Assembly: GCF_000403135.1 (NCBI RefSeq)
Contig: NZ_AQPN01000095.1
Coordinates: 1 to 52,347, forward strand
DNA length: 52,347 bases
From: Arcticibacter svalbardensis MN12-7
GTDB lineage: Bacteria > Bacteroidota > Bacteroidia > Sphingobacteriales > Sphingobacteriaceae
Direction of reading: 5' to 3'
In this document: in pieces, positions 26,399 through 46,131 of the stretch
Layout of the letters: each line of letters begins with the position of its first letter
How positions within the stretch are numbered: position 1 is the stretch's first letter
The notes under the pieces: model-generated
Told to the model about the DNA's origin: nothing
Databases searched by the model: none
Seen by the model: the letters and a program-made list of their open reading frames with translations, nothing else
Made by a program: the position numbers and the translations under genes

Positions 26399-26614
26399 CT
26401 TTTAAAATACGAGAACTGTTCAATGTCAGTAAATAAAGCTATTTGTCCAGATATAGTAATGATTGTCATTGTCTGAATGTAGTTTGTGTTATATTTGAAG
26501 AATTCAAGGCTGGACCTAGCTGAATTTTTTAAACGGGTTGATGCCGCTTTGGCTAATTTTGCAAAAAGGGGTATTGTTAGAATAGATACTTACTTAAACA
26601 AAAAAAATTTCGCT

Positions 26615-28459: not shown

Positions 28460-28581
28460 AATCTTTTGGTGCTGATCCCGAATGGAAGAAAATAAGTGTA
28501 ATTCCGGAATATGCAAACTCAAAGCTTGTATCTAAGATTACGTCTACATTTCTTCAGCCTACGGAGTATTCACAGATCTAG
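28130..28581 (+). pseudogene. NIPSNAP-family gene, 5'-truncated and frameshifted
   Basis: The C-terminal part of a NIPSNAP-family protein, about 150 codons. The N-terminal half is replaced by the AAA ATPase. The family stretches KRIFELRRYE, EIDIFKRLGFKPVFFGETI and PNLIYMVTFDDMAAHGQH are clear. The frame stops at TGA 28457-28459, but if one G is restored (CACTGG instead of CACTGA) the next frame continues the family sequence KSFGADPEWKKISVIPEYA and ends at TAG 28579-28581. So there are two lesions: a junction at about 28.13 kb and a one-base deletion at 28458-28459. The junction position is accurate only to about 15 bp. Confidence 0.82.
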
Positions 28582-28606
28582 TGGCCGTAGTAAATAAGGT
28601 TATTAA

Positions 28607-28885
28607 TTATGCACCAGCTTTGATGATTGTTTCATTGGTTGCCATTGCAATATAGTTTGAAGTATCGAAAAATGTAGGCTCATCGGGATAGACCTTTGTT
28701 AGATAATTTTCTGATGTGAAGGCCAACCGGATCTGCTTGACATCGAAGATTTCTATATTCTTAACGGAGGGAATTTTTGGGGTGCTAGTGTTGAGGGAAA
28801 GCTTTGCGGGACCATTGCCCTTTTGCGTTACCGAAAAGGCATGCTCAATTATGTTTAATTTAATAATAAGGTCCTGTAGAAACAT
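28607..28885 (-). CDS. Hypothetical 92-residue protein, possible gene fragment
   Basis: Not recognised. MFLQDLIIKLNIIEHAF begins a sequence with a natural amino-acid mix (QIRLAFTSENYLTKVYPDEP and FFDTSNYIAMATNETI). It reads like the end of a larger protein, and there is an in-frame stop 12 bp before its ATG. It sits in the 410-bp gap between the NIPSNAP remnant and the sigma factor gene, so it may be another leftover of the same rearrangement. An ORF on the opposite strand in the same place looks less protein-like. Confidence 0.4.
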   Translation of the reverse strand: MFLQDLIIKLNIIEHAFSVTQKGNGPAKLSLNTSTPKIPSVKNIEIFDVKQIRLAFTSENYLTKVYPDEPTFFDTSNYIAMATNETIIKAGA

Positions 28886-28955
28886 CCCTATTACAGGTCA
28901 AGAATTCGCGCATCGGTTAATAATTATAAAACATACACAATATATTCAGCTAACA

Positions 28956-28987
28956 TTTGAGTTTGAACTTGCAGAAGTTTAAACTCA
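28956..28987 (+). promoter_or_regulatory. 14-bp hairpin directly before the ECF sigma start
   Basis: TTGAGTTTGAACTT (28956-28969) and AAGTTTAAACTCAA (28974-28987) pair at 13 of 14 positions with a GCAG tetraloop; the remaining position is G-U in RNA, so the transcript would be fully paired. The stem ends 4 nt before the ATG at 28992 and so covers the ribosome-binding region. It could control translation of the sigma factor, or be a dyad operator in DNA. Confidence 0.6.
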
Positions 28988-28991
28988 AGAT

Positions 28992-29564
28992 ATGTCAACT
29001 ACCTGTTCTCAAACTTTTTTAGATTTAATAATCCTTAGAAAGGATGACGAAGCTTATGTATTTCTTCATTCACAATATCATCACCTCCTCACAACATTTG
29101 CAAAAGGATATTTGCGGTATAAAGAGCCCTCTGAAGAGATTGTTAATGACGTGCTTTTTAAAGTTTGGTCAAAAAAGGGGAAGGTGAGTGAAATAGACAA
29201 TTTGCGTCTTTACCTTTTTTCTTCCGTCAGAAATGAATGTTTAACACAACTTGCGAAACATCAAAGGGAGAAAAATTTCAACATCAATCTCAAATTTAAT
29301 GAATGCAGTTTGGATGACCCTGAAAGCATTTTTATATCCTCTGAATTGGGTATTAAGATCAAGGAGACCATCAATGATCTTCCTCCAAGATGTAAACAGA
29401 TTTATGAATTGATAAAGATTGATGGTAAAAGGAATAAAGATGTGGCAGAACTACTTGGTATTTCTATTAATACGATTGATGCCCAGCTTGCGATTGCCTT
29501 GAAAAGACTGCTAAGTACTGTTGAAATTTTCAAAGAAACTGGAATCTATAAAAGGATAAAGTAG
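28992..29564 (+). CDS. ECF RNA polymerase sigma factor (FecI-like)
   Basis: A 190-residue sigma-70 family factor of the extracytoplasmic group found with SusCD loci. Region 2 spans about 25-90 (YLRYKEPSEEIVNDVLFKVW, then LYLFSSVRNECL), and region 4 about 125-175 (DLPPRCKQIYELIKIDG, ELLGISINTIDAQLAIALKR), with its HTH. It should direct transcription of the SusC operon downstream when released by the FecR-type anti-sigma factor. The ATG at 28992 follows a hairpin that would hide the ribosome-binding site. It is 275 bp upstream of the fecR-like gene. Confidence 0.92.
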   Translation: MSTTCSQTFLDLIILRKDDEAYVFLHSQYHHLLTTFAKGYLRYKEPSEEIVNDVLFKVWSKKGKVSEIDNLRLYLFSSVRNECLTQLAKHQREKNFNINLKFNECSLDDPESIFISSELGIKIKETINDLPPRCKQIYELIKIDGKRNKDVAELLGISINTIDAQLAIALKRLLSTVEIFKETGIYKRIK

Positions 29565-29838
29565 TTTTTCTACTGAAAAGACCGGTAGAAATTAAGATCC
29601 CGGCTCACCGTTCAATCTAAGATTAATTAGATTGATTCCCCTCATAAGCATTATAAATCCAGCCTTCCTTCGGGTCCTCTATCTAAAAAGGCCATATTTT
29701 ATCACTCAGAAGCAATTCCGTCTTCACTCAATCTTTCCCCGAAGAGTATCACCGTAAAAAATTAATTAAAAAAAATTAACGGCACGCTTAGTAGAATCAG
29801 GCTTTTGATTAGTCTTATGGTAAAAGAGGTTAATTAAA
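29565..29838. other. Sigma-FecR gap with two short hairpins
   Basis: No gene is seen. Two inverted repeats lie near the left end: TTTCTAC (29567-29573) with GTAGAAA (29585-29591), and CAATCTAA (29613-29620) with TTAGATTG (29627-29634), the latter a perfect 8-bp stem. Neither is followed by a T-run. They may attenuate read-through from the sigma gene. The AT-rich right half probably carries the fecR promoter. Confidence 0.4.
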
Positions 29839-30864
29839 ATGAGTGAAAATGAAAGAGTGTGGCTATTGATGGCTAAAAAGATGACGCAATCAATAGAACA
29901 CTCAGAATTAAAAGAACTTGAAGAGATTTTAGCTAATAATCCTGAGTTATGGTACTCCTTCGAGATGCTGGAAGCTTCAAACGAATTGGAAGCTGCTCTC
30001 GAGAAATTTATGACTGAACCCAGGGCTCTTTTACAAAGTGCAAATGCCTCATTTAAAGAGGATGTAATCGCTACGGTTTCAGACAAAAGTGCCAAATCTA
30101 CCACCACATTTGCTTCAATCAAAATGGTAATGGCGATCGCTTTTGCAGTAGTCATTTCATTAATTGGCTTCTTTAATTATGATAGCCTGAAAGTTTATAC
30201 TTTATCAATGAATGAAATAATTACGCCAAGGGGTACGAAGTCACAATTACAGCTACCTGATGGAACAAAAATTATTTTGAACGCTGGAAGTAAGCTTCAA
30301 TACTCGAAACACTACGGTAAAAGCGAACGGGAGGTTTATTTGACTGGCGAGGCTTACTTTGAAGTTAAGCATGATGCAAAACGTCCCTTTATCGTGCATA
30401 CTTCGCAAGCAGATATAAAAGATTTGGGAACCATTTTTAATGTGAAAGCCTTTGATGAGCTGTTAGAAACCATACTTGTTGAAGGTGTTGTAGAAATTTA
30501 TCCCAAAAAAATGGGACAGAAAAAAATACGCATGATGCCTTTGGAAAAAGTAGTCATAACAACAGCATGGTTTGATAAAGGCCCTGAGATCAGTGTAGTG
30601 GTACCCGATGTCCAAACTAAGGAAATAGTAGAAACCGCATGGATCAATGATAAGCTGATTTTTAGAGATAAACGGTTTGAAGATCTTTCAAAAGAATTGG
30701 AACGCAGATTTAATGTAAAAATATATTTCAAGAGAAATGCCATCAAAGAATATCGCCTGACTGGTGTTTTTACAAATGAGAACATCAATGAGGCGATGAG
30801 TCTTTTAAAAGTAATAGCAAACATAAATTATACAATCAACGAAGATGAAATCATTATTGAATAA
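29839..30864 (+). CDS. FecR-type anti-sigma factor
   Basis: A 341-residue inner-membrane regulator that holds the ECF sigma factor until the SusC transducer signals. The N-terminal cytoplasmic part is residues 1-94, a single membrane segment is at about 95-113 (IKMVMAIAFAVVISLIG), the periplasmic FecR domain is at about 125-235 (ITPRGTKSQLQLPDGTKI, LTGEAYFEVKHD), and the C-terminal DUF4974/STN-like domain at about 270-341 (FEDLSKELERRFNVKIYF). Sigma, FecR, SusC order is the classic trans-envelope signalling arrangement. The GGGGA/TCCCC inverted repeat at 30899-30919 is in the leader of the following susC gene. Confidence 0.93.
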   Translation: MSENERVWLLMAKKMTQSIEHSELKELEEILANNPELWYSFEMLEASNELEAALEKFMTEPRALLQSANASFKEDVIATVSDKSAKSTTTFASIKMVMAIAFAVVISLIGFFNYDSLKVYTLSMNEIITPRGTKSQLQLPDGTKIILNAGSKLQYSKHYGKSEREVYLTGEAYFEVKHDAKRPFIVHTSQADIKDLGTIFNVKAFDELLETILVEGVVEIYPKKMGQKKIRMMPLEKVVITTAWFDKGPEISVVVPDVQTKEIVETAWINDKLIFRDKRFEDLSKELERRFNVKIYFKRNAIKEYRLTGVFTNENINEAMSLLKVIANINYTINEDEIIIE

Positions 30865-30955
30865 TAAGTCCGGTTAGAGAAACCAAGCATCGTAAAAAGG
30901 GGAATGCTCTAACACTCCCCCCAAGTTTATTTATTTTATTGAAGAGACACTGGAA

Positions 30956-33900
30956 ATGACCTTCAAAAAAACCATAAAATACAAAAGTATGAAAAAAATA
31001 TTACTGCCCACTCTTGGTATTCTACCTAAGATTGGTAAGGAGTTCGTATCAAATCTTAAATTTACTTTATTAGCCATTTTTGTACTGTGTTTACACCTAT
31101 CGCTATCTGCAAAAGCCTATTCACAAAAAGAGATTAAAAAGGAGCTTAATTTCAAAAGGATAAAATTTAAAGAAGCATTAATAAAAATTGAGTCTGTTAG
31201 TGAATTTAAATTTTTTTATAATTCCGACAAGATCCCTACCGAAAGCTGGGTTTCCTTACAAGCTCCAGCCCATACGGCAATTGGTGCCATTCTCACCAAA
31301 TTGCTGGACCCTTTAGATGTTACTTTTGAAGAACTATCCGGAAATGTCATAGCGCTTTCTACCCGTGATAACCTAATTGGCAACAATAAATTAGCACCAA
31401 TAACTGGAATTGTTAAAGACGAAAAGGGCGAAACCATACCAGGCGTAACTATTAAAGTAAAAGGCAGTACTATTGGAACGCTTACAAACAGTAATGGCGA
31501 ATTCAAGATCAATGCACCTGAGTATTCTACCTTAGTATTTAGTTATTTGGGATTTGAGAACTTAGAGGTTAAAGTAAACCAGGAGGTCGAATTAAACATT
31601 ATTCTCAAAGAAAGTAGCAACGCACTTAAGGAGGTTGTGGTAGTAGGATATGGCAAACAAGCTAAAGCACTTACTACTTCCTCCATATCGACCTTGAATG
31701 GAAATGATATTGTAAGGTCTCCGGTAGGAAATATCAATAATTCAATAGCTGGGAGAGTATCAGGCGTATTGACTTTTCAATCTAGTGGAGAGCCGGGAGC
31801 CGATGCCTCTTCAATACGGGTCAGAGGTGTTGGAACAAATGGATCAAGCAACGATGCATTAACAATCGTTGACGGGATCCAAAGACCTTTTTCGCAGCTC
31901 AATCCTGAAGAAATTGAAACGATTACCATTTTAAAAGATGCAGCTGCTATTGCTCCCTATGGTTTAGCTGGTGCAAACGGTGTGGTTTTGGTCACGACAA
32001 AAAGAGGTAAGGCCGGTAAGGTATCTCTGAATTTTGATACCTGGTATGGCGTGCAGCAACCCACACGGTTTCCTGACTATCTCAATTCATACGATTATGC
32101 CAGTACACTAAACATTGCTAGTGCAAACGCAGGCTTACCCGCCCCTTACTCAGATGAGGTTTTACAGAAATACAAAGACCACTCTGATCCCGATCATTAC
32201 CCTGATCATGATTGGTTACGTGAGGTCATTGATTTCGCTGCACCCATGACCTCTCAACACTTAACGTTTACCGGAGGATCAGAAAAAGTTAGGTTTTTCA
32301 GTTCTTTAGGTAATCTTTACCAACAAGGTTCTGTAGATGCTATCAATTATTCACGTTATAATTTTGCAACAAATGTTGATGTCAATGCAACCAACTCCAC
32401 CATTATTTCATTTGATATTAAAGGTAGTTTAGAAGTTACTAAAAACCCAGGCTCTACAACTGGAACTCAAATTTACACCTCGGTAACAAAGAATGCACCA
32501 CTGCTTAATACCCCTTTAAAATTCTCTAATGGTCTCCCTGGTAACTCCTTATTGCCATCCATAAACGAAAGCGGATACAACAGGAATAACACCAATATTT
32601 TATTTACCCAACTTTCGATTAAACAGGATTTGAAGTTTATTCAGGGATTATCGTTAAAAGGAGTAGCCGCTTACGATAAAAATTACAGAAAGAATAAACA
32701 ATGGCAGATACCCTACAGTTTTTATTCACTAAATGCAGCTGACGAATTTATTGCTACCACCGCAGGAGTAGCTTCAACCAGACTCACACAAGGATTTAAC
32801 GAAAATGTTAACATAACCTTACAAGCCTATCTGGATTATAAAAGAACATTTGGCAAACATGATGTAAGTGCGCTTGTGGTTGCAGAGCAGCGTAATGGAG
32901 ACTCAACTTCCTTTAGTGCATCAAGGATAAACTATCAAGTTCCTCTTGATGAGATCAGTCAAGGGAGCTCGAATAAAAATGACTTCGGTAATGAGGGAAC
33001 CTCAAGTAAATCTAAACAACTTGGTTTTGTATATCGGCTGAGCTATGCATTCAATCAAAAATACCTGGCAGAATTTTCAGGAAGATATGATGGGCACTAC
33101 TTCTTTGCACCCGGAAAACGATTTGCATTCTTTCCTGCTGCTTCTTTCGGATGGAGATTATCAGAAGAGTCCTTTATTAAAGATAACATCAGCTGGATTA
33201 ATAATTTAAAACTGCGCACATCATTTGGTAAATCAGGTAATCTTGCTGGTTCTCCCTTTCAGTATTTGAACTCGTATGGTTTAAACAGCAGTTACGTTTT
33301 TGGTGGATCAAACCCAACACAAGTATCAGGAATCTTTGAAAGATCCGAACCTAATATAAACATCACCTGGGAAACTGCTAAGAAGCTGGATATAGGTTTT
33401 GAAGCCAGCTTATTCAATCGAACCTTAAACATCGAGGCAGACTGGTTCAAAGAAAGAAGATCTGATATGTTAGTAGCACCAACTGCTCTATTACCAGTAG
33501 AATATGGTATTGGCGTATCTCAGGTAAATGGTGGCGTAATGGATAATCAAGGCTTTGATTTCAGTGTCAATACGAATCATACATTTGAAAACAAATTAAC
33601 ACTAAACGCTGGTGTGAATTTTTCTTATGCGAAGAACAAGCTGGTCCAGATCTATGAAAATGGATCCACTTTTGACAATGTGAACAGAAGAATTACCGGA
33701 AGGCCTTTAGGAACACAATATGGCTATCAATCTACTGGGTACTTTCAAACGCAGGAAGAAATAGATGCAGCCCCAAAGCAAAATTTCTCAGCTCTGAAAC
33801 CTGGTGATATAAGATATGCAGATCTTAACAATGATGGTGTAATAAATGAAGATGATCAAACGGTGATTGGTAATCCCGCTTTTCCTCAAATAATTTACGG

Positions 33901-34366
33901 ATTAACCTTTAATGCATCCTTTAAAGGTTTTGATCTGGGAATGTTATGGCAAGGAGCAGCACAAAGTAGCTTTCAATTAACTAATGAAGCATCAAATCCT
34001 TTTTTCAATGGTGCTAAAATATTTAGAGAACAATTGGATTACTGGACGCCAGAAAACCGGAATGCTGCGTACCCCATCATTCTTCCTTCCCCAAGCAGTA
34101 ACAGTCAGGTGGTGTCATCATTCTGGCAAAGAGATGGCAAATACCTGCGGTTAAAAAATATTGAACTGGGGTATAATCTGCCAAAACTGCTCATGCAAAA
34201 ACTCAGCATTGGAGGAATCCGAATTTATGCATCAGGACAAAACCTACTTACATTCACTGGCGAGAAATACCTTGATCCTGAAATTGGAGCAAGTGGTGCC
34301 AGTAAACGGGCAAGGTACTATTTCCAGCAAAAAGTGTTTTCATTTGGTATTAACGCTAATTTCTAA
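30956..34366 (+). CDS. SusC/RagA-family TonB-linked outer-membrane transporter
   Basis: An 1136-residue TonB-dependent porin that imports oligomers bound by the SusD lipoprotein. After a signal segment (about 35-53) come an STN signalling domain (about 65-135, KFKEALIKIESVSEFKFF), a carboxypeptidase-regulatory-like domain (about 148-217, TGIVKDEKGETIPGVTIKV), the TonB-box-like LKEVVVVGYG (224-233), the plug domain (IRVRGVGTNGSSND, LKDAAAIAPYGLAGANGVV) and the beta-barrel ending FGINANF. The STN domain fits regulation through the FecR/sigma pair upstream. Start: ATG 30956 is used; ATG 30989 (MKKILLPTLG) is equally good. It is 6 bp upstream of susD. Confidence 0.94.
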   Translation: MTFKKTIKYKSMKKILLPTLGILPKIGKEFVSNLKFTLLAIFVLCLHLSLSAKAYSQKEIKKELNFKRIKFKEALIKIESVSEFKFFYNSDKIPTESWVSLQAPAHTAIGAILTKLLDPLDVTFEELSGNVIALSTRDNLIGNNKLAPITGIVKDEKGETIPGVTIKVKGSTIGTLTNSNGEFKINAPEYSTLVFSYLGFENLEVKVNQEVELNIILKESSNALKEVVVVGYGKQAKALTTSSISTLNGNDIVRSPVGNINNSIAGRVSGVLTFQSSGEPGADASSIRVRGVGTNGSSNDALTIVDGIQRPFSQLNPEEIETITILKDAAAIAPYGLAGANGVVLVTTKRGKAGKVSLNFDTWYGVQQPTRFPDYLNSYDYASTLNIASANAGLPAPYSDEVLQKYKDHSDPDHYPDHDWLREVIDFAAPMTSQHLTFTGGSEKVRFFSSLGNLYQQGSVDAINYSRYNFATNVDVNATNSTIISFDIKGSLEVTKNPGSTTGTQIYTSVTKNAPLLNTPLKFSNGLPGNSLLPSINESGYNRNNTNILFTQLSIKQDLKFIQGLSLKGVAAYDKNYRKNKQWQIPYSFYSLNAADEFIATTAGVASTRLTQGFNENVNITLQAYLDYKRTFGKHDVSALVVAEQRNGDSTSFSASRINYQVPLDEISQGSSNKNDFGNEGTSSKSKQLGFVYRLSYAFNQKYLAEFSGRYDGHYFFAPGKRFAFFPAASFGWRLSEESFIKDNISWINNLKLRTSFGKSGNLAGSPFQYLNSYGLNSSYVFGGSNPTQVSGIFERSEPNINITWETAKKLDIGFEASLFNRTLNIEADWFKERRSDMLVAPTALLPVEYGIGVSQVNGGVMDNQGFDFSVNTNHTFENKLTLNAGVNFSYAKNKLVQIYENGSTFDNVNRRITGRPLGTQYGYQSTGYFQTQEEIDAAPKQNFSALKPGDIRYADLNNDGVINEDDQTVIGNPAFPQIIYGLTFNASFKGFDLGMLWQGAAQSSFQLTNEASNPFFNGAKIFREQLDYWTPENRNAAYPIILPSPSSNSQVVSSFWQRDGKYLRLKNIELGYNLPKLLMQKLSIGGIRIYASGQNLLTFTGEKYLDPEIGASGASKRARYYFQQKVFSFGINANF

Positions 34367-34372
34367 TTTAAC

Positions 34373-36016
34373 ATGAAAAATCAAGTTATAAAATTCATAT
34401 TGTTCTTGTCCTTGTTTTCATCTGCTTGTAACGATGAAATACTGGACATTCAACCCACCGATCAATTAACTGATGCTACCGTTTGGAGTAATGCTGCAAA
34501 TGCAGGGTTATTTCTGAATGATATCTATAATTCACTTAACCCGGGTCCTCAATCAACCGTCTTTACCAACCTGCCTTCTGAAATAAGCAATGATCCTCTG
34601 GATAATTTTTCAGATAACAGCATAGGCGGGTCACTTGCGGGCATCCCATCATATGTAAACTTTGCATCTGGTTCTTATGGACCCTCAACACCAATTTTTC
34701 CCGGTCATTGGGACAGCATGTACAAGGCCATCCGAAAATGTAATGTCTTTATTGAAAATGTTAGTCCGGCAGACTATGATGCTAACGTGAAGAAATCCTA
34801 TATCGCACAAGCTAGATTTCTAAGAGCCTACTTCTATAAACAATTGATGAATCTGTATGGTGGTGTGCCTATTATCACTAAATCCTTAAACCAATCTGAG
34901 GATGGAGAATCAATCTTTCAAGCCCGGAATTCGTATGAAGAGTGTGTTGCCTTTTTGCAGACCGAATGTGAAGAAGCCGCAACAGACCTTCCATTGAAGG
35001 TAACTGCTGCAGAGGCTGGCAGAGTAACCAAGGGTGCCGCACTCGCTTTAAAAGGAGAGGCAGAGCTGTATGCTTCAAAATGGGAAGACGCAGCAGCTAC
35101 AAATCTGAAAATAATCAATTTAGGTGCAGGTTATGATCTGTTCGCAGACTATGCTGGCTTGTTCTATGTAGCGAATGAGAACAATAAAGAAGTAATTTTT
35201 GACATTCAATATGCCGCAAATGTTAAGCCTGAAGTAAAGGAAGGTTATTGGAATCCGGTTAAAACTACAGATGGAACCAGTTTTGGTTCAGTAAATCCAA
35301 CCCAGGATATGGTGGATACCTATGAGTTTTTAGATGGTAAAACAGAGGCTGAAGGGTCAGCACTTTTTGATCCTTCAAATCCATATGCAAACCGGGATAA
35401 ACGTTTTGCTGCATCTATTATTTATGATGGAGCAACCTGGAAAGGAGGCGTAATAAACACACGCCTGGGCATAGCAAATAATAGAAACCAACTGGACGAA
35501 TCTGGTTCAGGAGGGGGAACTAGGACGGGTTATTGGCTCGGTAAAATAATTGATCCTTCTATCGTACCCCGGGTAAGTGCGGGTCAAAATTCAATTATCT
35601 GGAGATATGCAGATGTGCTTCTTAACTATGCAGAAGCAAAAAATGAAAATACAGGCCCGGACCAATCTATATATGATGCCATTAATAAGCTTCGGACCAG
35701 AGGCGGATTACCCAATCTGACCACAGGGTTGACACAGGACCAAATGAGGGAAAAAATACGAAGAGAAAGACGGGTAGAATTATTTTTTGAAGGCAAAAGA
35801 TTATTTGATTTATGGAGATGGCGAATTGCAGAGGATGTATTCTCTAAGCCTCTTTCCGCCATGAAGATTACTGTTGTCGCTGGTAAACTCGTGTATCAAA
35901 AACAACCAGCAGGTGGAGCTAAAGTAACCTTTGATAAATCTAAAAATTATTTAATGCCTATTCCTGCGGCAGTAATCGCGCAAAATCCAAAAATTACGCA
36001 AAATCCAGGATATTGA
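34373..36016 (+). CDS. RagB/SusD-family nutrient-binding lipoprotein
   Basis: A 547-residue surface lipoprotein that caps the SusC porin and binds the glycan or glycoconjugate. The signal is MKNQVIKFILFLSLFSSAC with lipobox cysteine C19. Tetratricopeptide-like helices and the family hallmarks ARFLRAYFYKQLMNLYGGVP and RRERRVELFFEGKRLFDLWRW (near 461; split as RRERRVELFFEG and KRLFDLWRW) are clear, and the C-terminus is NPKITQNPGY. It shares the operon with SusC (6-bp spacing), and its stop codon overlaps a TTG in the phosphodiesterase frame. Confidence 0.94.
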   Translation: MKNQVIKFILFLSLFSSACNDEILDIQPTDQLTDATVWSNAANAGLFLNDIYNSLNPGPQSTVFTNLPSEISNDPLDNFSDNSIGGSLAGIPSYVNFASGSYGPSTPIFPGHWDSMYKAIRKCNVFIENVSPADYDANVKKSYIAQARFLRAYFYKQLMNLYGGVPIITKSLNQSEDGESIFQARNSYEECVAFLQTECEEAATDLPLKVTAAEAGRVTKGAALALKGEAELYASKWEDAAATNLKIINLGAGYDLFADYAGLFYVANENNKEVIFDIQYAANVKPEVKEGYWNPVKTTDGTSFGSVNPTQDMVDTYEFLDGKTEAEGSALFDPSNPYANRDKRFAASIIYDGATWKGGVINTRLGIANNRNQLDESGSGGGTRTGYWLGKIIDPSIVPRVSAGQNSIIWRYADVLLNYAEAKNENTGPDQSIYDAINKLRTRGGLPNLTTGLTQDQMREKIRRERRVELFFEGKRLFDLWRWRIAEDVFSKPLSAMKITVVAGKLVYQKQPAGGAKVTFDKSKNYLMPIPAAVIAQNPKITQNPGY

Positions 36017-36039
36017 TCATTTGCAATCTTCGTAAAAAC

Positions 36040-36978
36040 ATGAAAAATAGAGCCTTTTTGTCTTTTTCTGCCTTACTGATTCCATTTTTTCTAATCAGTT
36101 TTTCGACAAGGGATAAACTTCATCGAATCGAGTTAACCTCAACAGATGATTTAAAAACATTTTTTACATATAGTCCAGATAGGATTCCTTTTGTAAGCTC
36201 ACACCGCGGTGGAGCAACAATTGGCTATCCGGAAAATAGTATCGAAACCTTTGAACATACCCTACAAAGTGTGCATTCCATAATGGAGATTGATCCCCAT
36301 TTTACTAAGGACAGTGCAATTGTATTGATGCATGACGGAACGCTGAATAGAACCAGCACAGGAAAAGGAAAAGTATCCGATTATACCCTGGCAGAAATCA
36401 AAAAACTAAAACTAAAAGATCCACAAGGCAATATCACCAATCAGCGCATCCCCACATTAGATGAAGCGCTCCAATGGGCCAAAGGAAAGACCATTTTAGT
36501 TCTGGATATGAAAGATGTGCCGATCAAAGCCAGAGTAAAAAAGATTGAAGCCAATCATGCTGAGTTTTCGACCATAGTGATGGCATACTCCCTTGAAGAT
36601 GCCAAAGCATGTTATGCTTTGAATAAGAACATCATGATGGAAGTGATGCTGAATAGTGAAGCTAAAGTGAAAGAATTTGATTCGACTGGTATTCCCTGGA
36701 CAAACGTAGTCGTTTTCGTATCACATCTTACACCTATTGATAAAAAGCTCATTGATGAAATTCATAAAAGAGGGGCTATGACCATATTAGGAAGTTCGAG
36801 AAACATTGATGCTGATTATGCCCATTCAAAAATAACGAAGCAAGAATTGGAAAAAGGGTATAGAAACATGATTGATCATGGAACGGATATCATAGAAGCT
36901 GATTTGGGGATAGAAGCAGGGATCGCATTACAAAGTATGCGACCTTCACCCTCAAAAAAAGATAAATTCTTTAAATAA
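36040..36978 (+). CDS. Glycerophosphodiester phosphodiesterase family, exported
   Basis: Hydrolyses glycerophosphodiesters to glycerol-3-phosphate and an alcohol; other phosphodiester-linked substrates are possible. With the ATG at 36040 it has 312 residues and a signal peptide, MKNRAFLSFSALLIPFFLIS, predicting export. The TIM-barrel GDPD active site is complete: HRG at H55-R56 (SHRGGATIGYPENS), E83 and D85 in MEIDPHF, and H98 in LMHDGTLNRTSTG. A TTG start at 36013, overlapping the susD stop as TTGA, is possible but would spoil the signal peptide. It is the first enzyme after the SusCD pair. Confidence 0.9.
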   Translation: MKNRAFLSFSALLIPFFLISFSTRDKLHRIELTSTDDLKTFFTYSPDRIPFVSSHRGGATIGYPENSIETFEHTLQSVHSIMEIDPHFTKDSAIVLMHDGTLNRTSTGKGKVSDYTLAEIKKLKLKDPQGNITNQRIPTLDEALQWAKGKTILVLDMKDVPIKARVKKIEANHAEFSTIVMAYSLEDAKACYALNKNIMMEVMLNSEAKVKEFDSTGIPWTNVVVFVSHLTPIDKKLIDEIHKRGAMTILGSSRNIDADYAHSKITKQELEKGYRNMIDHGTDIIEADLGIEAGIALQSMRPSPSKKDKFFK

Positions 36979-37002
36979 TCAAACCGATCACACCTCGTTT
37001 GT

Positions 37003-38502
37003 ATGTTCCATTTAATAGTAGTGAAATCGTCTCTTAGACAACTTATGGGCATTACCCTTCTTTCTTGCCTGGGTGTGCTTCCTCTATTCGGGTTTGCCCA
37101 TGCAAACCCAACCATTGATTCGCTAATAAAAAAGCGAAAAAGTCTGCCAAACATTATTTTCATTATGGCTGATGATCTGGGTTATGGTGACATTGGGTTT
37201 AATGGTCAACAGAAAATAAAAACGCCTCACATTGATCAGTTAGCTCAGGAAGGTATGGTCATGACCCAACATTATGCCGGCTCTTCTGTATGCGCTCCTT
37301 CAAGGGCAAGTTTAATGACTGGTGTCAACGTAGCACATGCGCATGTTAGAGAGCTTTCTGCCTGGACAGCAAGTGGAAAAGCCATCGACTTAGCTGCAGA
37401 AGATGTTACAGTAGCCCAGGAATTGAAACGCGTAGGTTACTCTACAGGAATAATTGGTAAATGGGGACTAGAAGAAGGAGCAGGAACAGGAAATGTTTTA
37501 GACCATGGCTTTGATTACTTCTATGGCTATAAAACCCATACAGAAGCCCATCATTATTACCCGGAATATATATGGAAAAACAGAGAAAAACTGCAATTGC
37601 CTGATAATGAAAGTGCAAGTAAAAAAGGGGAGTACTCCAATGATGCTTTCACCCGGGAAGCACTCGCTTTTATACAAAAGAACAGCAAAAAACCCTTCTT
37701 TCTTTACCTGCCTTATACCATTCCCCATAATGAACTTACCGTTCCTGACGAATCCAAAGCACCTTATGAAAATCTCGGCTGGCCGAAGAAACCAATGGAT
37801 GTAAGTGGGCATTACCATCATGATCCTGAAGGAAATACCACCTATGCAGGAATGATCTCCCGTCTGGATAGTTATATAGGACAGCTTATGCAAGAGCTTA
37901 AGACGCAAGGAATAGATGATAACACCTTAGTGATCTTTACAAGCGACAACGGCCCTGGTAGTGATAAAGGTATTTTTAATAGCACGGGAGGACTAAGAGG
38001 CAGAAAGCTTACCCTTTATGAAGGAGGGATTCGGGAACCCTTTGCAGCAAGGTGGCCCAATAAAATTAAACCGGGTTCAACGTCTGATCAACCTGCTGCA
38101 TTTTGGGATTTACTACCTACCCTTTGTGATATAGCTGGCATTAAACCAAGCGTTAAAACAGATGGAATCTCTTACCTTCCGACGCTTTTGAATCAAGTGA
38201 AAAACCAAAAAAAGCATGATTTACTTTATTGGGAGATTAATGAATCTCAGGGTCCGATACAAGCCATCCGATTGGGAGATTGGAAAGGAATCAACGCTTA
38301 CCAAAAACCATTCGAATTATATAATCTCAAGGTTGATCCAAAGGAAAGCAAAAACCTGGCACTAAGCAATCCTGGAGTAGTTGCCAAAATAAAGCAAATG
38401 ATGATCAGCTACAGGACAGAAAATCCTGAATTTCCTTTAACTAAAAGGACACCCAACTACGGTAATGACGGTAGTAATCCAGAGACAATTAAAAGTAAAT
38501 AG
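37003..38502 (+). CDS. Arylsulfatase-type sulfatase, Cys-type, exported
   Basis: Removes sulfate esters. The 499-residue protein belongs to the alkaline-phosphatase superfamily, S1-type sulfatases. It has an N-terminal signal (to about FAHANP, residue 36), metal ligands in IMADDLGYGDIGF (D57, D58), and the CxPxR formylglycine motif CAPSRASLMTG with C97, to be converted to formylglycine by an anaerobic-type or FGE maturase not seen here. Further conserved parts are GKWGLEEGAG, IPHNEL and FTSDNGPGSD with the second metal aspartate. It starts 25 bp after the phosphodiesterase, and its stop codon is 1 bp before the next ATG. Confidence 0.92.
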   Translation: MFHLIVVKSSLRQLMGITLLSCLGVLPLFGFAHANPTIDSLIKKRKSLPNIIFIMADDLGYGDIGFNGQQKIKTPHIDQLAQEGMVMTQHYAGSSVCAPSRASLMTGVNVAHAHVRELSAWTASGKAIDLAAEDVTVAQELKRVGYSTGIIGKWGLEEGAGTGNVLDHGFDYFYGYKTHTEAHHYYPEYIWKNREKLQLPDNESASKKGEYSNDAFTREALAFIQKNSKKPFFLYLPYTIPHNELTVPDESKAPYENLGWPKKPMDVSGHYHHDPEGNTTYAGMISRLDSYIGQLMQELKTQGIDDNTLVIFTSDNGPGSDKGIFNSTGGLRGRKLTLYEGGIREPFAARWPNKIKPGSTSDQPAAFWDLLPTLCDIAGIKPSVKTDGISYLPTLLNQVKNQKKHDLLYWEINESQGPIQAIRLGDWKGINAYQKPFELYNLKVDPKESKNLALSNPGVVAKIKQMMISYRTENPEFPLTKRTPNYGNDGSNPETIKSK

Positions 38503-38503
38503 T

Positions 38504-41029
38504 ATGAAAAAATCGATTCTAATTATATATATCTTTTTTTGCGTTGTTGCTTTAAAAGTGAACGCAGCGCAAATTGTTATATTGACTAAAGACAATTTAA
38601 CATTACTTCCCAAAGGCAAAGAAGTTGATGGCATGATCGGTGATTGGGTTATGAAAAATGACCAGGTAATCGCAGTAATTGGTGCAGCTTACCCGGATCG
38701 GGAGGCCAATCAGATGGTATCTTCCATACAAGGAGCAATTATTGATTTCAGTACCCTTTCTGCCAATAATGACCAGTTAACTGTATTTTATCCGCAGGGA
38801 GCACGAGTAGATGTTCCTTCAGCCGATACGATTATTGTAGTTAGGGCCATGGGTGCTGTGATCGTGTTAAAGGCATTGAAGTATGCTACTGATGAAGAGC
38901 CTTATACAGCTGAAACTACGTATACAATGAAAGATGGGGAAGACTATATTCACGTAAAAACCACCTATAAAAATACAGTAAACAAGAGCATAAAACTTCC
39001 GGTTTTCGATATGATCAGAGGTGATAACAAACTGAGTAATTTTACGCCGCAAGGGCTCTCAAATCTCGCCTATATCAATAACGACTGGTACCATTCCGCA
39101 TATGGTGTACTGTCTGAGAAAAACAAGATCTTCATACCTAAGGCTTCCGCACAGCAAAATCTAATTCGGTTAGGCCACAAAGTTTATTATAAATTGTCTG
39201 ATGCTGATCCAACTGAAAATGTAACCCTCAATCCATTTGATTCTTTGTCAATAAGCAGGAAGTTTGTAACCGCCGCTGATGTTTCGGGTCTTCAAATTCA
39301 GCAGTTAGCACAGCCGGACAATCAGCTTTTCAAATTGACAGTATCGCTTAAGGACCATGAGAACACTGATTTTGCAGACGTTTTTCTGAATTTACGCAAT
39401 GATAAAGGGGAGTTGGTTTCTTCTTCTATATCTCATAAAAACGGAGAAGCATTCTTATATGCTTTAAAAGCTTTAAAAGGGAAATACAAATTAGAAGCGT
39501 ATAAACCAGGACATGATAGTATAATTAAAGAAATTATATTCAGTGATACTCTTCAAAAACTAACACTTAAATTCGACAAAGAAACGAAAATAGCATTTAA
39601 AATTACGGATGAAAAAGGAAATCTATTACCCGTTAAGGTTTCCTTTAGAGGCATAAATGGAACGAAAACCCCCAATTTTGGTCCCGCCACAAGAAACGAT
39701 GGAAGTGCTGAACTCTACTATGCAAACAGTAAAGAATTTGAGGTTCCTATTACACCTGGAGATTATACGATCGTGATCTCTCATGGCCCTGAATACGACA
39801 TAGTAGAACGTACTGTAAAAGTAGTAAAAGGCAAAAATCACGTTATAGAAGCTGAAATCAGCCGGGCCTTTACCTCAGCTCATTACATCATAGCGGATTT
39901 ACATAACCATACCACCAGGAGCGGTGATTCAAATGCAGGAGTGCCTGATCGTATAATTAATATGGTTGCCGCAGGGATAGAATTTGCTCCGGCAACCGAA
40001 CATAACCGAATAAGTACCTATGCGGAGGTAATTGATAGTTTAAAGCTCAGTAAATTTATTAAATCAGCAGCCGGTATTGAACTAAGCGGCAGACCAGGCC
40101 CTGGCAGTACCAATCATCAGATTGCTTTTCCTTTATTGATCCAACCCGGTAAACGTGGTTATGGAGCACCAAAAACCGACGTTGACCCTTATGTACAGAT
40201 GAAAAGGCTGTATGATTACGATAATGGAAGCTTTAAGTTGATGCAGCAAAACCACCCCGAAATCAGTTTATTATATTTCGATAAAAATGCGGATGGTATA
40301 AAGGACAAAGGGTATGGCACAGAGGAATTTACCGATGTTATGGAAATCAGGGAATCGATGTTTGATTTACCGGATGCTTTAAACGGAGGAAATACGAATA
40401 CCCGTTCTTTCCAATGGTTGCAATTATTAAACCTCGGTTATCACATTTTTGGAACGGCAAATTCAGATGCCCATGTGATTGGCAGCAGTACCGGAGCTCT
40501 GTTCAACTATGTATATACCAAACATGATGTACCCGAAGAAATAAATGCTCTTGAAATTGCAGCGCAAGTAAAAAAAGGACATGTTATTATGAGTAACGGC
40601 CCATTTATGACGGTAACAGTTAATGATTCATTACCGGGTAGTACTGTAACTGCAATGCGAAACTCAGTAAATATGGCAGTAGTTATTTCACAAGCCCAAT
40701 GGAGCCATGTGAATACGGTTAATGTTATTATCAATGGAAAGATAAAACCTGAATACACATTTACCAAAGCGAAAAATCCAAGCCTGTTCCAAAACAATGG
40801 GTTTAATCACCAATTTCCAATAAAATTAGCCAAAGATGCAGTTGTCCTGATAATGGCCTATGACACCGAAGAGCATGTTGGCCCTGTAACAGGAAAGCGC
40901 AATCAACTGCCTTTTGCACTTTCAAATCCATTCTTTATTGATTTTGATGGTGGGGAGTTCAAAACAAATCATGACATGCTCGGGCAAGTCTTACCGGTAA
41001 AGGGAAAGATCAAGGAAATAAAAGATTGA
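38504..41029 (+). CDS. CehA/McbA-family PHP-domain metallohydrolase
   Basis: An 841-residue exported protein. The signal peptide is MKKSILIIYIFFCVVALKVNA. The N-terminal 460 residues are beta-rich with carboxypeptidase-regulatory-like repeats (FKLTVSLKDHENTDF; IAFKITDEKGNLLPVKVSFRG). The catalytic PHP-type domain begins with ADLHNHTTRSGDS (D465, H467, H469), continues with ATEHNR and ends with GTANSDAH at 650-657 and VIMSNGPFM, all metal-ligand patterns of CehA/McbA-like enzymes. CehA itself hydrolyses carbaryl, but Bacteroidota members sit in polysaccharide loci and probably cleave a phosphodiester, ester or similar bond. It lies directly after the sulfatase, so translation is coupled. The TTG overlap (TTGA at 41026-41029) links it to the next gene. 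Confidence 0.83.
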   Translation: MKKSILIIYIFFCVVALKVNAAQIVILTKDNLTLLPKGKEVDGMIGDWVMKNDQVIAVIGAAYPDREANQMVSSIQGAIIDFSTLSANNDQLTVFYPQGARVDVPSADTIIVVRAMGAVIVLKALKYATDEEPYTAETTYTMKDGEDYIHVKTTYKNTVNKSIKLPVFDMIRGDNKLSNFTPQGLSNLAYINNDWYHSAYGVLSEKNKIFIPKASAQQNLIRLGHKVYYKLSDADPTENVTLNPFDSLSISRKFVTAADVSGLQIQQLAQPDNQLFKLTVSLKDHENTDFADVFLNLRNDKGELVSSSISHKNGEAFLYALKALKGKYKLEAYKPGHDSIIKEIIFSDTLQKLTLKFDKETKIAFKITDEKGNLLPVKVSFRGINGTKTPNFGPATRNDGSAELYYANSKEFEVPITPGDYTIVISHGPEYDIVERTVKVVKGKNHVIEAEISRAFTSAHYIIADLHNHTTRSGDSNAGVPDRIINMVAAGIEFAPATEHNRISTYAEVIDSLKLSKFIKSAAGIELSGRPGPGSTNHQIAFPLLIQPGKRGYGAPKTDVDPYVQMKRLYDYDNGSFKLMQQNHPEISLLYFDKNADGIKDKGYGTEEFTDVMEIRESMFDLPDALNGGNTNTRSFQWLQLLNLGYHIFGTANSDAHVIGSSTGALFNYVYTKHDVPEEINALEIAAQVKKGHVIMSNGPFMTVTVNDSLPGSTVTAMRNSVNMAVVISQAQWSHVNTVNVIINGKIKPEYTFTKAKNPSLFQNNGFNHQFPIKLAKDAVVLIMAYDTEEHVGPVTGKRNQLPFALSNPFFIDFDGGEFKTNHDMLGQVLPVKGKIKEIKD

Positions 41030-41043
41030 TTAAAAGCTATAAT

Positions 41044-43269
41044 ATGATGATCCGATCAAGAGTAAATAAAACAGTAGTATGTCTATTTATTATCTCGTTT
41101 TTCCATGTGATGGTTCATGGTCAGATGATCCAGCCTCAAGAGCTTAAACCACTTTCCAATTTTCAGGGTTTTCCTTCTGGCTCAATCTATCAAAATGTTA
41201 ATCTAGCACCAGAGTTAAGAGCCAGAAATGTGATTAACTATTTAAGTTTTGATGAAAAACTGAGTTTAACCACCGGTATCTTAGGTTTCTGTTTTCCCGG
41301 AATACCCCGCCTGGGTCTGCGTGCAGTTGTGATGGCTGATGCATCGCAAGGCATACGACTTAGTTCAATTCAAAGTGATACTGAAAGTGTTTCTTTTCCA
41401 AGTATGCAAGCTCTTGCAGCAACCTGGAACCCCAAAATCGCTTTAGACTTTGGAACTGCCATGGGAGAACAGTGCAAATTACATGGCGTAGATGTGTTGT
41501 TAGGCCCCGGAATTAACATGCAACGCACGTCAGAAGGAGGGAGGAATTACGAGTATATGGGGGAGGACCCATTGCTTACCTCTAAGATTGCTGTTGCTTA
41601 CGTTAAGGGTATCCAGGCTAAAGGAATTGTTGCAACTGCAAAGCACTTCATCTGTAATGACCAGGAGTTTGTCAGACATATTGCCAGTAGTGATGTTTCA
41701 GAAAGGACATTAAGGGAAATTTATTTACCTCCCTGGAAAGCATTGATTGAGCAAGCAGGGCTCCGGGCCATCATGACGGGTAATAACTTAGTGAACAGCA
41801 TTCCCAATACCATGAATAAACCGCTCCTAAATGATATTTTAAGAGATGAATACCATTTCAAGGGCTTAGCAATGACTGATTGGCAGAATACCAACTATTA
41901 TCCTTTTCAGCAATATTTAGTACCTATCTCTGGAATATCGCTGTTAATGCCGGAAAATAAAACATTTGCAAATTACATCAAGTCTTATCTTACCAAATAT
42001 CCAGATAAGCTAAAAAAGATTGAAAACGAGCTGAATGACATGATCAGCTATAATCTGTATACTTTTTTTGAGGCAGGGATCTATGATAGAGGCGCAGTTG
42101 ATGTTGCTATGGCAAAGAAGGTGAAACTCCATGAAAAATTAGCAGAGCAATGTGCAGATGAGTCTATTTGTTTATTAAAAAACGAACAAGATATATTACC
42201 GGTCAGCGTCAGGAAAAAGATCCTGTTAACAGGGCTGCCTGAAATTTACAGTGGTAAAGGAAGTGGCTTTGTAAAGGGCTTTAATCATGTTGATTTTGAA
42301 TCCGGACTAAGGAGTGCATATGGTAATAACCTGATCTCTGAACCCAAACCTACAGATGAGCAAATACAAAAGGCCGATGTTGTGATCTTTCGCTTAAGCA
42401 AAGAGGCGGGTGAAGGATACGATGTCCCATTTATAGGTGCTGATTCCTCAAGTACAACGATCCAAAAACTGTGTAGACTAAACAAGAATGTAATTGTTTT
42501 GGTAAGTTCCGGAAACGGTATAGAAATGCCCTGGATTCAAAGTGTAAAAGGAGTTTTATGGACTTTTATGCTTGGACAACAAAGGGGAGCTGCATTGGCT
42601 AATGTGATTACTGGAAAAGTGAACCCCTCTGGCAAATTACCTTTCACGCTAGAGAAAGATATTCAGGATTCTCCCGCACCTGAATTCAATTTTCTGGGAG
42701 GAAAACCGTATTGGCATGGCAGCAATAGATTCTATAAAGATTATTGGAAAGGGACGGATACGACAACCGCTAAAATAGAACTTGCTAAGTATGTTAAACC
42801 AAATCAGTTGGTCCACATACCCTATACAGAAGGAGTTTTTATGGGTTATCGATGGTATGAGAAGTATAATAAACCCATACAATTTTGTTTCGGTTATGGA
42901 TTATCCTATACGCAATTTGAGTTTAAAAATCTAAAAATATCCAGAACCTCCATCCCAAGTAAAGACTCTTTAATAGTTAGTTTACAGATACGAAACAGTG
43001 GTAAAGCGCGTGGAGCTGAAGTGGTGCAACTCTATTTATCTGATGTGAAAAGTAGCGTGGAGCGACCATTGAAAGAACTAAAAGGGTTCCAAAAAATCTA
43101 TTTACGGTCCGGGGAGCAACAAACAATCAAGTTTGTTATCCATCCAGAAGATTTGGCTTTCTGGGATGAAAATAAAAATGCATGGAATGCCGAACCAGGA
43201 GATTATGAAATCATGATCGGTAATTCATCTCAGGATATTAAGCTGAAACATAAATTTAAACTCTTGTAA
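41044..43269 (+). CDS. Glycoside hydrolase family 3 (beta-glucosidase-like)
   Basis: Exo-acting glycosidase removing terminal sugars. It has 741 residues from the ATG at 41044, with a signal peptide (MMIRSRVNKTVVCLFIISFF through VMVHGQ); a TTG at 41026 would lengthen it and mask the signal. GH3 N-terminal barrel: GPGINMQRTSEGGRNYEYMGEDP, KHFICNDQE and the nucleophile D279 in GLAMTDWQ. The C-terminal alpha/beta sandwich and a fibronectin-III-like tail (RPLKELKGFQKIYL) follow. Beta-glucosidase, beta-xylosidase and other specificities cannot be told apart from sequence. Fifth enzyme-side gene of the locus, followed 25 bp later by a TetR regulator. Confidence 0.92.
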   Translation: MMIRSRVNKTVVCLFIISFFHVMVHGQMIQPQELKPLSNFQGFPSGSIYQNVNLAPELRARNVINYLSFDEKLSLTTGILGFCFPGIPRLGLRAVVMADASQGIRLSSIQSDTESVSFPSMQALAATWNPKIALDFGTAMGEQCKLHGVDVLLGPGINMQRTSEGGRNYEYMGEDPLLTSKIAVAYVKGIQAKGIVATAKHFICNDQEFVRHIASSDVSERTLREIYLPPWKALIEQAGLRAIMTGNNLVNSIPNTMNKPLLNDILRDEYHFKGLAMTDWQNTNYYPFQQYLVPISGISLLMPENKTFANYIKSYLTKYPDKLKKIENELNDMISYNLYTFFEAGIYDRGAVDVAMAKKVKLHEKLAEQCADESICLLKNEQDILPVSVRKKILLTGLPEIYSGKGSGFVKGFNHVDFESGLRSAYGNNLISEPKPTDEQIQKADVVIFRLSKEAGEGYDVPFIGADSSSTTIQKLCRLNKNVIVLVSSGNGIEMPWIQSVKGVLWTFMLGQQRGAALANVITGKVNPSGKLPFTLEKDIQDSPAPEFNFLGGKPYWHGSNRFYKDYWKGTDTTTAKIELAKYVKPNQLVHIPYTEGVFMGYRWYEKYNKPIQFCFGYGLSYTQFEFKNLKISRTSIPSKDSLIVSLQIRNSGKARGAEVVQLYLSDVKSSVERPLKELKGFQKIYLRSGEQQTIKFVIHPEDLAFWDENKNAWNAEPGDYEIMIGNSSQDIKLKHKFKLL

Positions 43270-43294: not shown

Positions 43295-43870
43295 TTGACT
43301 AAAGATTTTAACGAAGATGATATACTGAGGAAGGCCATCTTGATTTTCTGGGAAAAGGGGTATAATGCTACCTCGATACATGACCTTATTGACGGACTGG
43401 GGATCGGTCGTTCCAGTATCTATCATGCATTCGGAGATAAACACAGTCTTTTTGTAAAAGCGCTTGAACTGTATCAATCTGAAGGTACTGAAAAAATCAA
43501 AGATATTGTCGAGAATGCCCCATCTCTAAAAATGGCTCTTGAAACACTTTTAAATGCAGTAGCTAAGGACATACTTAATACTACTTGCCCAAAAGGTTGC
43601 TTTAAGGTCAATTCGGAAGTAGAAGTAGCAGCACAAGACGAAATCGTAAATAAGCTTGTTTACAATGATGATTTGATTATTGAAGAGGCACTCCATAAAG
43701 CGTTTAAAAAAGGGCAGCAAAACGGAGAAATCCAGGCCTCAAAAGCCCCCTTAGCACTAGCCCGCTTTTTTTGCAACACCATTGCCGGAATGCGTGTATA
43801 TGCCAAATTCAGAAACGAACGTCAGTTTTTCGATGATATCGCAAAGAAAGCACTTTTCGTTATAGGGTAG
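43295..43870 (+). CDS. TetR/AcrR-family transcriptional regulator
   Basis: A 191-residue repressor-type protein. The N-terminal HTH is ILRKAILIFWEKGYNATSIH and DLIDGLGIGRSSIYHAFGDK, and a C-terminal ligand-binding domain of the family with the KGCFKVNSEVEV segment follows. Start is TTG at 43295: no ATG precedes the HTH, and AGGAG at 43287-43291 (spacing 3-4 nt) gives an unusually good Shine-Dalgarno for this genome. It is the last plus-strand gene, 25 bp after the GH3 gene, and could control either the glycan locus or the AhpD/Crp pair that converges with it. Confidence 0.88.
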   Translation: MTKDFNEDDILRKAILIFWEKGYNATSIHDLIDGLGIGRSSIYHAFGDKHSLFVKALELYQSEGTEKIKDIVENAPSLKMALETLLNAVAKDILNTTCPKGCFKVNSEVEVAAQDEIVNKLVYNDDLIIEEALHKAFKKGQQNGEIQASKAPLALARFFCNTIAGMRVYAKFRNERQFFDDIAKKALFVIG

Positions 43871-45486: not shown

Positions 45487-46128
45487 ATGATGCGAACAAT
45501 TAAAAACGGCGCAAATGGCGCATTTTCAGGAAAAGTAGGAAGTGTAGTTGGCAGCAACTGGCGCGATGTCGATTACATCAGGGGGCTCTCAAAACGGTCA
45601 ACTAAAAAGCCAACAGAAAAGCAGAGCCAGGCAAGGCGGAATTTTGGCTTATTATCAGAATTTTTAGGTTCGCTCAGAGCAGTGATTGACCAGGGATTTA
45701 AACATGAGGATACCCGAAGGGCAACAGCATTGAACCTGGCGATTCAGGCGAATTATCAGGTTTTTGAGAACGTTCAAGCTGATGCTTTGCCGGATTATGC
45801 AAAGGTCATTTTAAGCAAAGGGAGGTTGGTTGGGAAACCAGCCGGGTGTAATCTTTCGTCAGCAGGAGCAGGTGTGATGCGGATTACCTGGGAGATGTAT
45901 AGTAATTCGGCCCTGGAGAGAGGAGTGGATCAGGCAACGATTGTGCTGTACTCCCCATCTTTGAAAGAGTCTCTGATTTTGAGCGATCAATATTTACGTC
46001 AGGATCAAATGGCAGAAATCCATCTTCCGGGGAGTTGGGCTGATCAAAACCTCTGTGTTTATATGTTCATGACTTCTATGGAAGATCAGAATTCAGATTC
46101 GGTATTTGTTGGATTCTTTACTAACTAG
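45487..46128 (+). CDS. DUF6266-like protein, first copy
   Basis: A 213-residue protein of a family common in Pedobacter-like genomes (recognised by KNGANGAFSGKVGSVVGSN near the N-terminus; identification from memory). Function unknown. No signal peptide, membrane segment or catalytic motif is evident. The C-terminal half is beta-rich (VMRITWEMYSNS, ATIVLYSPSLKESLIL). The N-terminus has two candidate ATGs at 45487 and 45490. The second copy begins 3 bp after its stop codon, so the two are an operon. An AT-rich terminator-like hairpin and an unusual 11-nt repeat array lie upstream. Confidence 0.72.
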   Translation: MMRTIKNGANGAFSGKVGSVVGSNWRDVDYIRGLSKRSTKKPTEKQSQARRNFGLLSEFLGSLRAVIDQGFKHEDTRRATALNLAIQANYQVFENVQADALPDYAKVILSKGRLVGKPAGCNLSSAGAGVMRITWEMYSNSALERGVDQATIVLYSPSLKESLILSDQYLRQDQMAEIHLPGSWADQNLCVYMFMTSMEDQNSDSVFVGFFTN

Positions 46129-46131
46129 ATC

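Follow-up and report, generated by a model that had tools for sequence, protein, structure and literature searches.

A phosphodiesterase and a sulfatase as the conserved core of a SusCD locus in Arcticibacter svalbardensis, and its possible small anionic substrate

Loci built around a SusC/SusD pair (SusCD) are usually taken as polysaccharide loci. What, then, would be taken up through such a pair when the conserved enzymes point to two kinds of ester and few glycosidases are needed? The question is raised by Arcticibacter svalbardensis MN12-7, of which a stretch of 52,347 nucleotides (contig NZ_AQPN01000095.1, here the window) was analysed. Positions 28992-43269 encode, all in the same direction on the plus strand, an extracytoplasmic function (ECF) sigma factor, FecR, SusC, SusD, a GDPD-type phosphodiesterase (hereafter GDPD), a sulfatase, a CehA/McbA-type PHP metallohydrolase (PHP) and a glycoside hydrolase (GH) of family GH3. 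Within related genomes GDPD and sulfatase are found together beside the same SusCD pair. Chances are about even that the locus serves the sigma/FecR-regulated import of a small anionic glycoside-like molecule bearing a phosphodiester as well as a sulfate ester. The genes and the matches that identify them are as follows.

28992..29564, plus strand: ECF sigma factor (Sig70_bacteroi1); TIGR02985 at 128.6 bits (cut-off 126.4), sigma-70 regions 2 and 4
29839..30864, plus strand: FecR-type anti-sigma factor; FecR and FecR_C domains
30956..34366, plus strand: SusC/RagA TonB-dependent transporter; SusC/RagA at 939 bits (cut-off 368)
34373..36016, plus strand: SusD-type lipoprotein; SusD_RagB, signal end ...SSAC-NDE by eye
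36040..36978, plus strand: GDPD-type phosphodiesterase, exported by eye; GDPD at 77 bits (cut-off 23.6)
37003..38502, plus strand: S1-type (Cys) sulfatase, exported by eye; Sulfatase at 205 bits, and SGSH_C
38504..41029, plus strand: CehA/McbA-type PHP metallohydrolase, exported by eye; NF038032 at 112.3 bits (cut-off 80)
41044..43269, plus strand: GH3 glycosidase, exported by eye; GH3 N, C and Fn3-like domains
43295..43870, plus strand: TetR-family regulator, 25 bp after GH3 in the same direction; membership of the unit uncertain

This eight-gene set had been listed in a preliminary description of the window, and both the set and the remark that GH3 is the single glycoside hydrolase among the locus enzymes are borne out. 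Counted from the first in-frame ATG, the gaps are 6 bp between SusC and SusD, 23 bp between SusD and GDPD, 24 bp between GDPD and sulfatase and 14 bp between PHP and GH3; the sulfatase-PHP gap is 1 bp with the PHP start at its second in-frame ATG (38504). The listed open reading frames (ORFs) begin earlier for GDPD (TTG at 36013; the in-frame ATG at 36040 was taken as start), PHP (ATG at 38465, 854 aa) and GH3 (TTG at 41026; the first in-frame ATG, 41044, was used). A consensus scan found no terminator-like sites on the plus strand between the locus genes, and its three plus-strand matches all fall within the SusD and sulfatase genes. The enzyme genes are likely co-transcribed. SusC carries about 150 residues upstream of its carboxypeptidase-regulatory domain, an extension that we take to be of the type expected of a transducer signalling via sigma/FecR.

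Which parts of the locus belong together can be judged from other genomes. Close SusD orthologues, searched for in 399 genomes of the family (Sphingobacteriaceae) at E<=1e-140 with the first few candidates per genome scored, occur in at least four: the window genome, G782 (68% identity), G693 (60%) and G208 (52%). Among 295 genomes drawn class-wide, only that of the window had one. All four carry a close SusC (1487, 1309 and 1086 bits in G782, G693 and G208), and in all four GDPD and sulfatase lie next to the SusCD pair, so that the comparison of gene order proposed in the preliminary description returned a SusCD-GDPD-sulfatase core. In G693 the two enzymes form one 756-aa ORF, sulfatase first and then GDPD; both domains score above their Pfam cut-offs, and the GDPD part keeps the HRGG, E-x-D and HD motifs. 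In G208 the two genes overlap by 4 bp and a TIM-barrel gene follows. No annotated GH adjoins SusCD in G782, G693 or G208, as judged by Pfam on part of the ORFs and by similarity to the window genes.

The same pairing is evident from the GDPD side. A tree was built from 27 rows, a non-random sample made up of 24 rows from the top 29 of the GDPD list (G706, G086, G256, G156 and G171 left out) and of L005, L062 and L117, which entered via PHP, SusD and CehA searches. A sulfatase was counted if it scored at least 300 bits to the window enzyme and lay within 10 kb. One clade of eight rows, with 100/100 support, has a close sulfatase in seven, against none of the 19 other rows; on the tree this label changes twice, compared with a mean of 6.3 when shuffled, and 0 of 500 shuffles were as low. 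The sulfatase is next door or fused in five clade rows (window, G782, G693, G131 and G208), 1.9 kb away in G688 with another sulfatase-family gene between, and 5.6 kb away in G711. The eighth row, Persicitalea jodogahamensis (Spirosomataceae), has its GDPD paired with PHP instead of a counted sulfatase. Outside the clade, L057 has a weaker sulfatase-type gene about 2 kb from GDPD (108 bits, under the 300-bit threshold). SusC lies within 10 kb of GDPD in 13 of the 27 rows.

Judged by these linkages, the GDPD-sulfatase-SusCD set appears non-random. That unrelated exported enzymes were assembled by chance behind a SusCD pair is very hard to credit: PHP and GH3, which are not conserved with this SusCD, would suit such an origin, but for GDPD and sulfatase it is largely refuted by the repeated linkage, the one fusion and the restriction to a clade. 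Among the titles and abstract openings listed, in a search with subscription journals largely outside it, none describes a SusCD locus that pairs a GDPD with a sulfatase. The phosphodiesterase described in PMC10704324 belongs to a different superfamily from the window GDPD.

PHP has a different distribution. The type is rare, with any match in only 3 of 300 genomes of the order (the window, Desertivirga and one at 4e-4) and, at 1e-20, in 1 of 395 genomes of the phylum, the window's own. The Persicitalea jodogahamensis locus comprises a sigma gene (23 bits), an FecR-like ORF (by eye), SusC, SusD, GDPD and PHP, the last beginning 4 bp after GDPD and sharing about 50% identity with the window PHP; the Desertivirga xinjiangensis locus comprises sigma, FecR, SusC, SusD and PHP. 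Since a GDPD-sulfatase and a GDPD-PHP pair each recur elsewhere, the window would combine the two, with GH3 in addition. A further CehA/McbA protein is found at L117 (5726-19213), together with genes for SusC, SusD, a PI-PLC-C1 protein, an alkaline phosphatase, an alkaline phosphatase/GDPD_2 protein and a major facilitator superfamily transporter. Because L117 places it among phosphoesterases, the CehA/McbA protein may act as a phosphomonoesterase, as this context suggests. Up to E 0.1 no solved relatives of the L117 CehA protein were detected, and no report of a periplasmic-phosphatase role for a CehA/McbA-type protein was found among the papers listed. Taken together, the conservation of GDPD with sulfatase, their fusion, the GDPD-PHP pair and the lack of an adjacent annotated GH at the three other SusD-orthologue loci point to a functional set of enzymes, and such a set would fit a target that bears a sulfate along with a phosphodiester.

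Other loci with related genes were also seen. Within the genome of the window, further GDPD loci are L054 (C1), with SusCD, GH27, GH20 and an M19 peptidase, and L055 (C90), with SusCD, BT_3987-type/F5-8C and purple-acid-phosphatase-like proteins. L051 (1225-12814) holds SusC with DUF5689 and, in a row, genes for a metallophosphoesterase, endonuclease/phosphatase-type proteins (two, of which one by eye), a GDPD and a type I phosphodiesterase, and reads as another phosphodiester-centred locus. Alpha-alpha toroid (prenyltransferase-like) proteins are encoded close to GDPD loci in two genomes that belong to different families (L005:12533-14407 and L039:3758-5560). Beside the G208 GDPD-sulfatase locus stand PSCyt1/PSCyt2/PSD1 planctomycete-type cytochrome and DUF1501 genes (L046:2288-8359), and about 13 kb from the G208 GDPD a GH2-like ORF accompanies a further, separate SusCD pair (L066, by eye).

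The catalytic parts of the four enzymes are in place; the residues named here are those with catalytic roles in their families. GDPD has the set H64-R65, E92, D94 and H107, invariant in seven aligned members, and its closest solved relative, 3mz2 (aligned residues 36-320, E 9.5e-77), shows the same catalytic-type motifs under a title no more specific than glycerophosphoryl diester phosphodiesterase. The sulfatase has VCAPSR with Cys97 and a metal site of Asp57, Asp58, Asp315 and Asn316, in keeping with the C-x-P-S-R and Asp-Asp-Asp-Asn pattern of S1 enzymes; these residues are kept in all eight aligned rows, except that the motif Ser is Thr in L042 and L046. PHP has H480-N-H482, H513, H597, D668 and H670, its HNH, EHN, NHP and NSDxH motifs are invariant in three aligned members, and residues 474-826 make up the match to CehA_McbA_metalo (NF038032), above the curated cut-off. 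In GH3, MTDW at 283 and Glu463 line up with the nucleophile Asp and the acid/base Glu of solved GH3 chains. Family motifs are likewise complete for GDPD and CehA/McbA. None of the four belongs to a depolymerising family in Pfam or NCBIfam.

The remainder of PHP is less readily placed. Its N-terminal half is large, with beta-rich stretches. No Pfam family matched the protein at E<=0.001, and a single-sequence search gave no solved relatives up to E 1; a profile search against solved structures gave matches no better than E 0.0067, all of them in stretches other than the PHP domain. Structure prediction from a three-row alignment reached a mean pLDDT of 42.5.

Maturation of the sulfatase in the host is possible, as an anSME-type enzyme for maturing sulfatases is encoded in the genome (512.9 bits, cut-off 349) alongside five FGE-domain matches, one of them an EgtB-like gene in the window. 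The latter, an FGE-sulfatase Pfam match at 16584-17744, was ruled out as a sulfatase maturation gene on account of its DinB domain and an adjoining histidine-specific methyltransferase gene. The two genes, at 15595-17744, have an EgtD/EgtB-like arrangement, presumably that of ergothioneine synthesis.

Export signals and localisation were read by eye from the N-termini. SusD has a lipoprotein signal, and GDPD, PHP and GH3 have ordinary export signals in which no lipobox pattern was found; a periplasmic location of these three would follow. The sulfatase signal region contains a Cys that matches a loose lipobox pattern, a column occupied by Cys in three of eight aligned rows, namely the window and its two closest relatives. 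It also has, by eye, a later Ala-His-Ala site, and given that site an ordinary signal seems likelier. The preliminary description had ascribed export signals to all four enzymes, which agrees with the N-termini apart from this extra Cys. A small imported substrate is suggested by the three enzymes that lack a lipobox together with the lack of a depolymerase.

Together, these features may be arranged into a working scheme, in which the order of steps, the role of PHP, the class of substrate and everything after import are inferred from what the protein families do. The substrate would be a small, soluble, anionic oligosaccharide, glycoside or deacylated lipid headgroup, captured at the cell surface by SusD and imported by SusC. 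In the periplasm the sulfatase would take off the sulfate and GDPD would open the phosphodiester; PHP might then act on the resulting phosphomonoester, or on another ester, and GH3 would free a terminal sugar. The cell would gain a sugar or polyol, perhaps also phosphate and sulfate. Sigma factors and FecR proteins relay the binding of substrate and induce their locus, and here binding would presumably switch on the locus in the same way. Of the target proposed in the preliminary description, phosphodiester and sulfate fit the recurrent, once fused pair of enzymes; a large polymer is not favoured because no depolymerising enzyme is encoded, and for the same reason a small imported molecule is. 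A teichoic-type polymer or a glycolipid headgroup, both named there as examples, was too specific, and nothing singles out either.

Several observations weigh against this scheme. The fusion was seen in G693 alone, a genome that is 92% complete. PHP and GH3 are absent at the three other SusD-orthologue loci and so lie outside the conserved core; GH3 is the window's own addition. No match to a GDPD or a sulfatase was found in the 22.5 kb read at the Desertivirga xinjiangensis PHP locus, and among ten CehA/McbA loci read only L117 gave a GDPD match. GH-type genes do occur near two members of the GDPD clade (GH27 and a GH42/GH35-like gene in G688, GH76 in G131). The sulfatase may be a lipoprotein anchored at the surface. 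Finally, sites resembling a PHO box, by an E. coli-type pattern, number 29 against 47 expected, thus without excess; none lies in 28460-28990, and one overlaps the sigma start at 28993.

Some of these points would suit a conventional polysaccharide utilization locus (PUL) for a sulfated glycan, for example one containing sulfated galactose, in which GDPD would only trim phosphodiester substituents and further glycosidases would come from other parts of the genome. Among solved structures the sulfatase is closest to 7ana and 7an1, which we take to be BT1622 and BT4683 of Bacteroides thetaiotaomicron. BT1622 is described as a 3S-Gal/GalNAc sulfatase and BT4683 as a 3S-Gal sulfatase (PMC10154612). 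On that identification the S1_4 and S1_20 sulfatases of mucin PULs are probably its closest relatives of solved structure; those described in PMC10154612 have host glycans as targets. Unlike the window locus, the PULs of such enzymes in B. thetaiotaomicron hold several glycoside hydrolases. Sulfatase matches in the genome number 16 and fall in about 12 open reading frames. A paralogue 45% identical to the window sulfatase lies in a sulfatase-rich cluster (L127:5921-19997, C104) beside three more sulfatases and, by eye, GH2-, GH95- and GH30-like enzymes; at G688 the GH27 stands beside GDPD and sulfatases, and surface anchoring of the sulfatase would also agree with a conventional PUL. Against it, the other SusD-orthologue loci have no adjacent GH among the ORFs run against Pfam, a lone GH3 cannot depolymerise a glycan, and GDPD is a repeated and once fused partner of the sulfatase rather than an occasional extra. 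A conventional PUL is, on these grounds, unlikely.

A further possibility is a small-glycoside locus, in which relatives use 3-oxidation and elimination, the window uses GH3, and GDPD and sulfatase merely unmask the sugar. Four clade loci carry TIM-barrel genes (PF01261; G782, G711, G688 and G208), three of them, all but G208, also Gfo/Idh/MocA dehydrogenase genes, and G688 a 3keto-disac_hyd gene as well; at G782 a second GDPD and a sugar transporter accompany them. Among NCBIfam models, that of the BT_2158 family glycoside 3-dehydrogenase fits the dehydrogenases of G688 and G782 best, at 486 and 155 bits, yet both scores are below the curated cut-off of 750. The window locus has no such gene, a difference from its relatives that also counts against the proposed scheme, and none stands beside the G693 fusion, where a gene for an oxidoreductase C-terminal domain is about 9 kb off, past another SusCD pair. 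It is highly improbable that a small-glycoside locus of this kind accounts for the window. Myo-inositol catabolism downstream in the relatives was also considered and not adopted: for both dehydrogenases tried, IolG scores lower than the glycoside 3-dehydrogenase. Among models for the TIM-barrel proteins, IolE ranks first for that of G208 (38.6 bits, far short of its cut-off of 290) and second for that of G782.

Uptake of a small sulfated phosphodiester remains the preferred reading, and it has a wider form. More tentatively, the loci may represent a distinct class of SusCD loci for molecules that are both phosphodiester-linked and sulfated, with GDPD and sulfatase as core and, in the window version, the CehA/McbA protein as a periplasmic phosphatase. 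If true, the habitats of these bacteria should contain an as yet uncharacterised glycoconjugate, sulfated and with phosphodiesters, from a class of natural molecules so far unrecognised as a bacterial nutrient, and there would be a route for the joint scavenging of phosphorus and sulfur. It would also lend the large CehA/McbA-type PHP proteins a functional context. The G693 fusion protein makes the question directly testable.

The locus is bordered by other features. Directly after mnmE (19927-21285), the stretch 21362-28459 carries an integrase (22093-23205), excisionase-like helix-turn-helix genes, DUF3800 and an AAA_21 ATPase, and GC content falls from 0.431 to 0.373-0.388 in the integrase stretch; the whole resembles a mobile element carrying defence-type cargo. 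When 21000-24000 was compared with the remainder of the window, a single 15-mer pair, probably there by chance, was the only exact direct repeat of at least 14 bp. Downstream of the locus, 45487-48522 holds two DUF6266 genes and, after them, pieces of transposase (DUF772 and DDE_Tnp_1_6) whose reading frames overlap.

Among known systems, SusCD loci with phosphodiesterases or phosphatases in place of carbohydrate-active enzymes (CAZymes) are already described as phosphate-utilisation systems (PUS; PMC8115612), and GDPDs broadly of this type are widespread in the family, with matches in 116 of 251 genomes (E<=1e-30); the preliminary description mentions neither point. The PUSI and PUSII loci of Flavobacterium johnsoniae are induced by phosphate depletion; PUSI comprises an ECF sigma factor, PusCD and two periplasmic phosphodiesterases, and PUSII comprises FecR, PusCD and PhoA1 with a GDPD_2 domain (PMC8115612). 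Both share with the window a SusC/D-type pair, regulation by sigma or FecR, and phosphodiesterases or phosphatases that are exported, export being predicted for the window. L117 has the gene kinds of both PUSI and PUSII and adds CehA/McbA.

These parallels would support membership of PUS, with organic phosphorus scavenged from phospholipid headgroups or similar diesters and with sulfatase and GH3 as accessories: the window has sigma, FecR, SusCD and GDPD, and L117, in the same family, mixes both sets of gene kinds. Several differences make plain membership rather improbable. PUS is defined by induction at low phosphate, whereas the window is likened to it from gene content, and its PHO-box-like sites show no excess. 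The phosphodiesterases reported for PUS are of PI-PLC-C1, metallophosphoesterase or PhoA types, whereas that of the window is a GDPD. The word sulfatase is absent from the main text of PMC8115612, whereas the window has a sulfatase that, as a recurrent and once fused partner, points past phosphorus alone. GH3 and the large CehA/McbA protein are additional in the window. The locus might then work like a PUS with a sulfatase added, which would extend the PUS idea to sulfur.

Compared with the CehA/McbA family (NF038032), the window PHP differs in its large beta-rich N-terminal half and its SusCD context, and carbaryl-type activity is not implied. As in PUS, a SusC/D pair stands with a phosphodiesterase of predicted export, but the absence of CAZyme-type hydrolases that marks PUS does not extend to the window because GH3 is present. 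As in a PUL, SusC and SusD stand in tandem with co-directional CAZymes, here GH3 and the sulfatase. The most fitting label for the locus is that of a variant, PUS-like or PUL-like, whose core is a phosphodiesterase with a sulfatase, and it is a plain member of neither kind.

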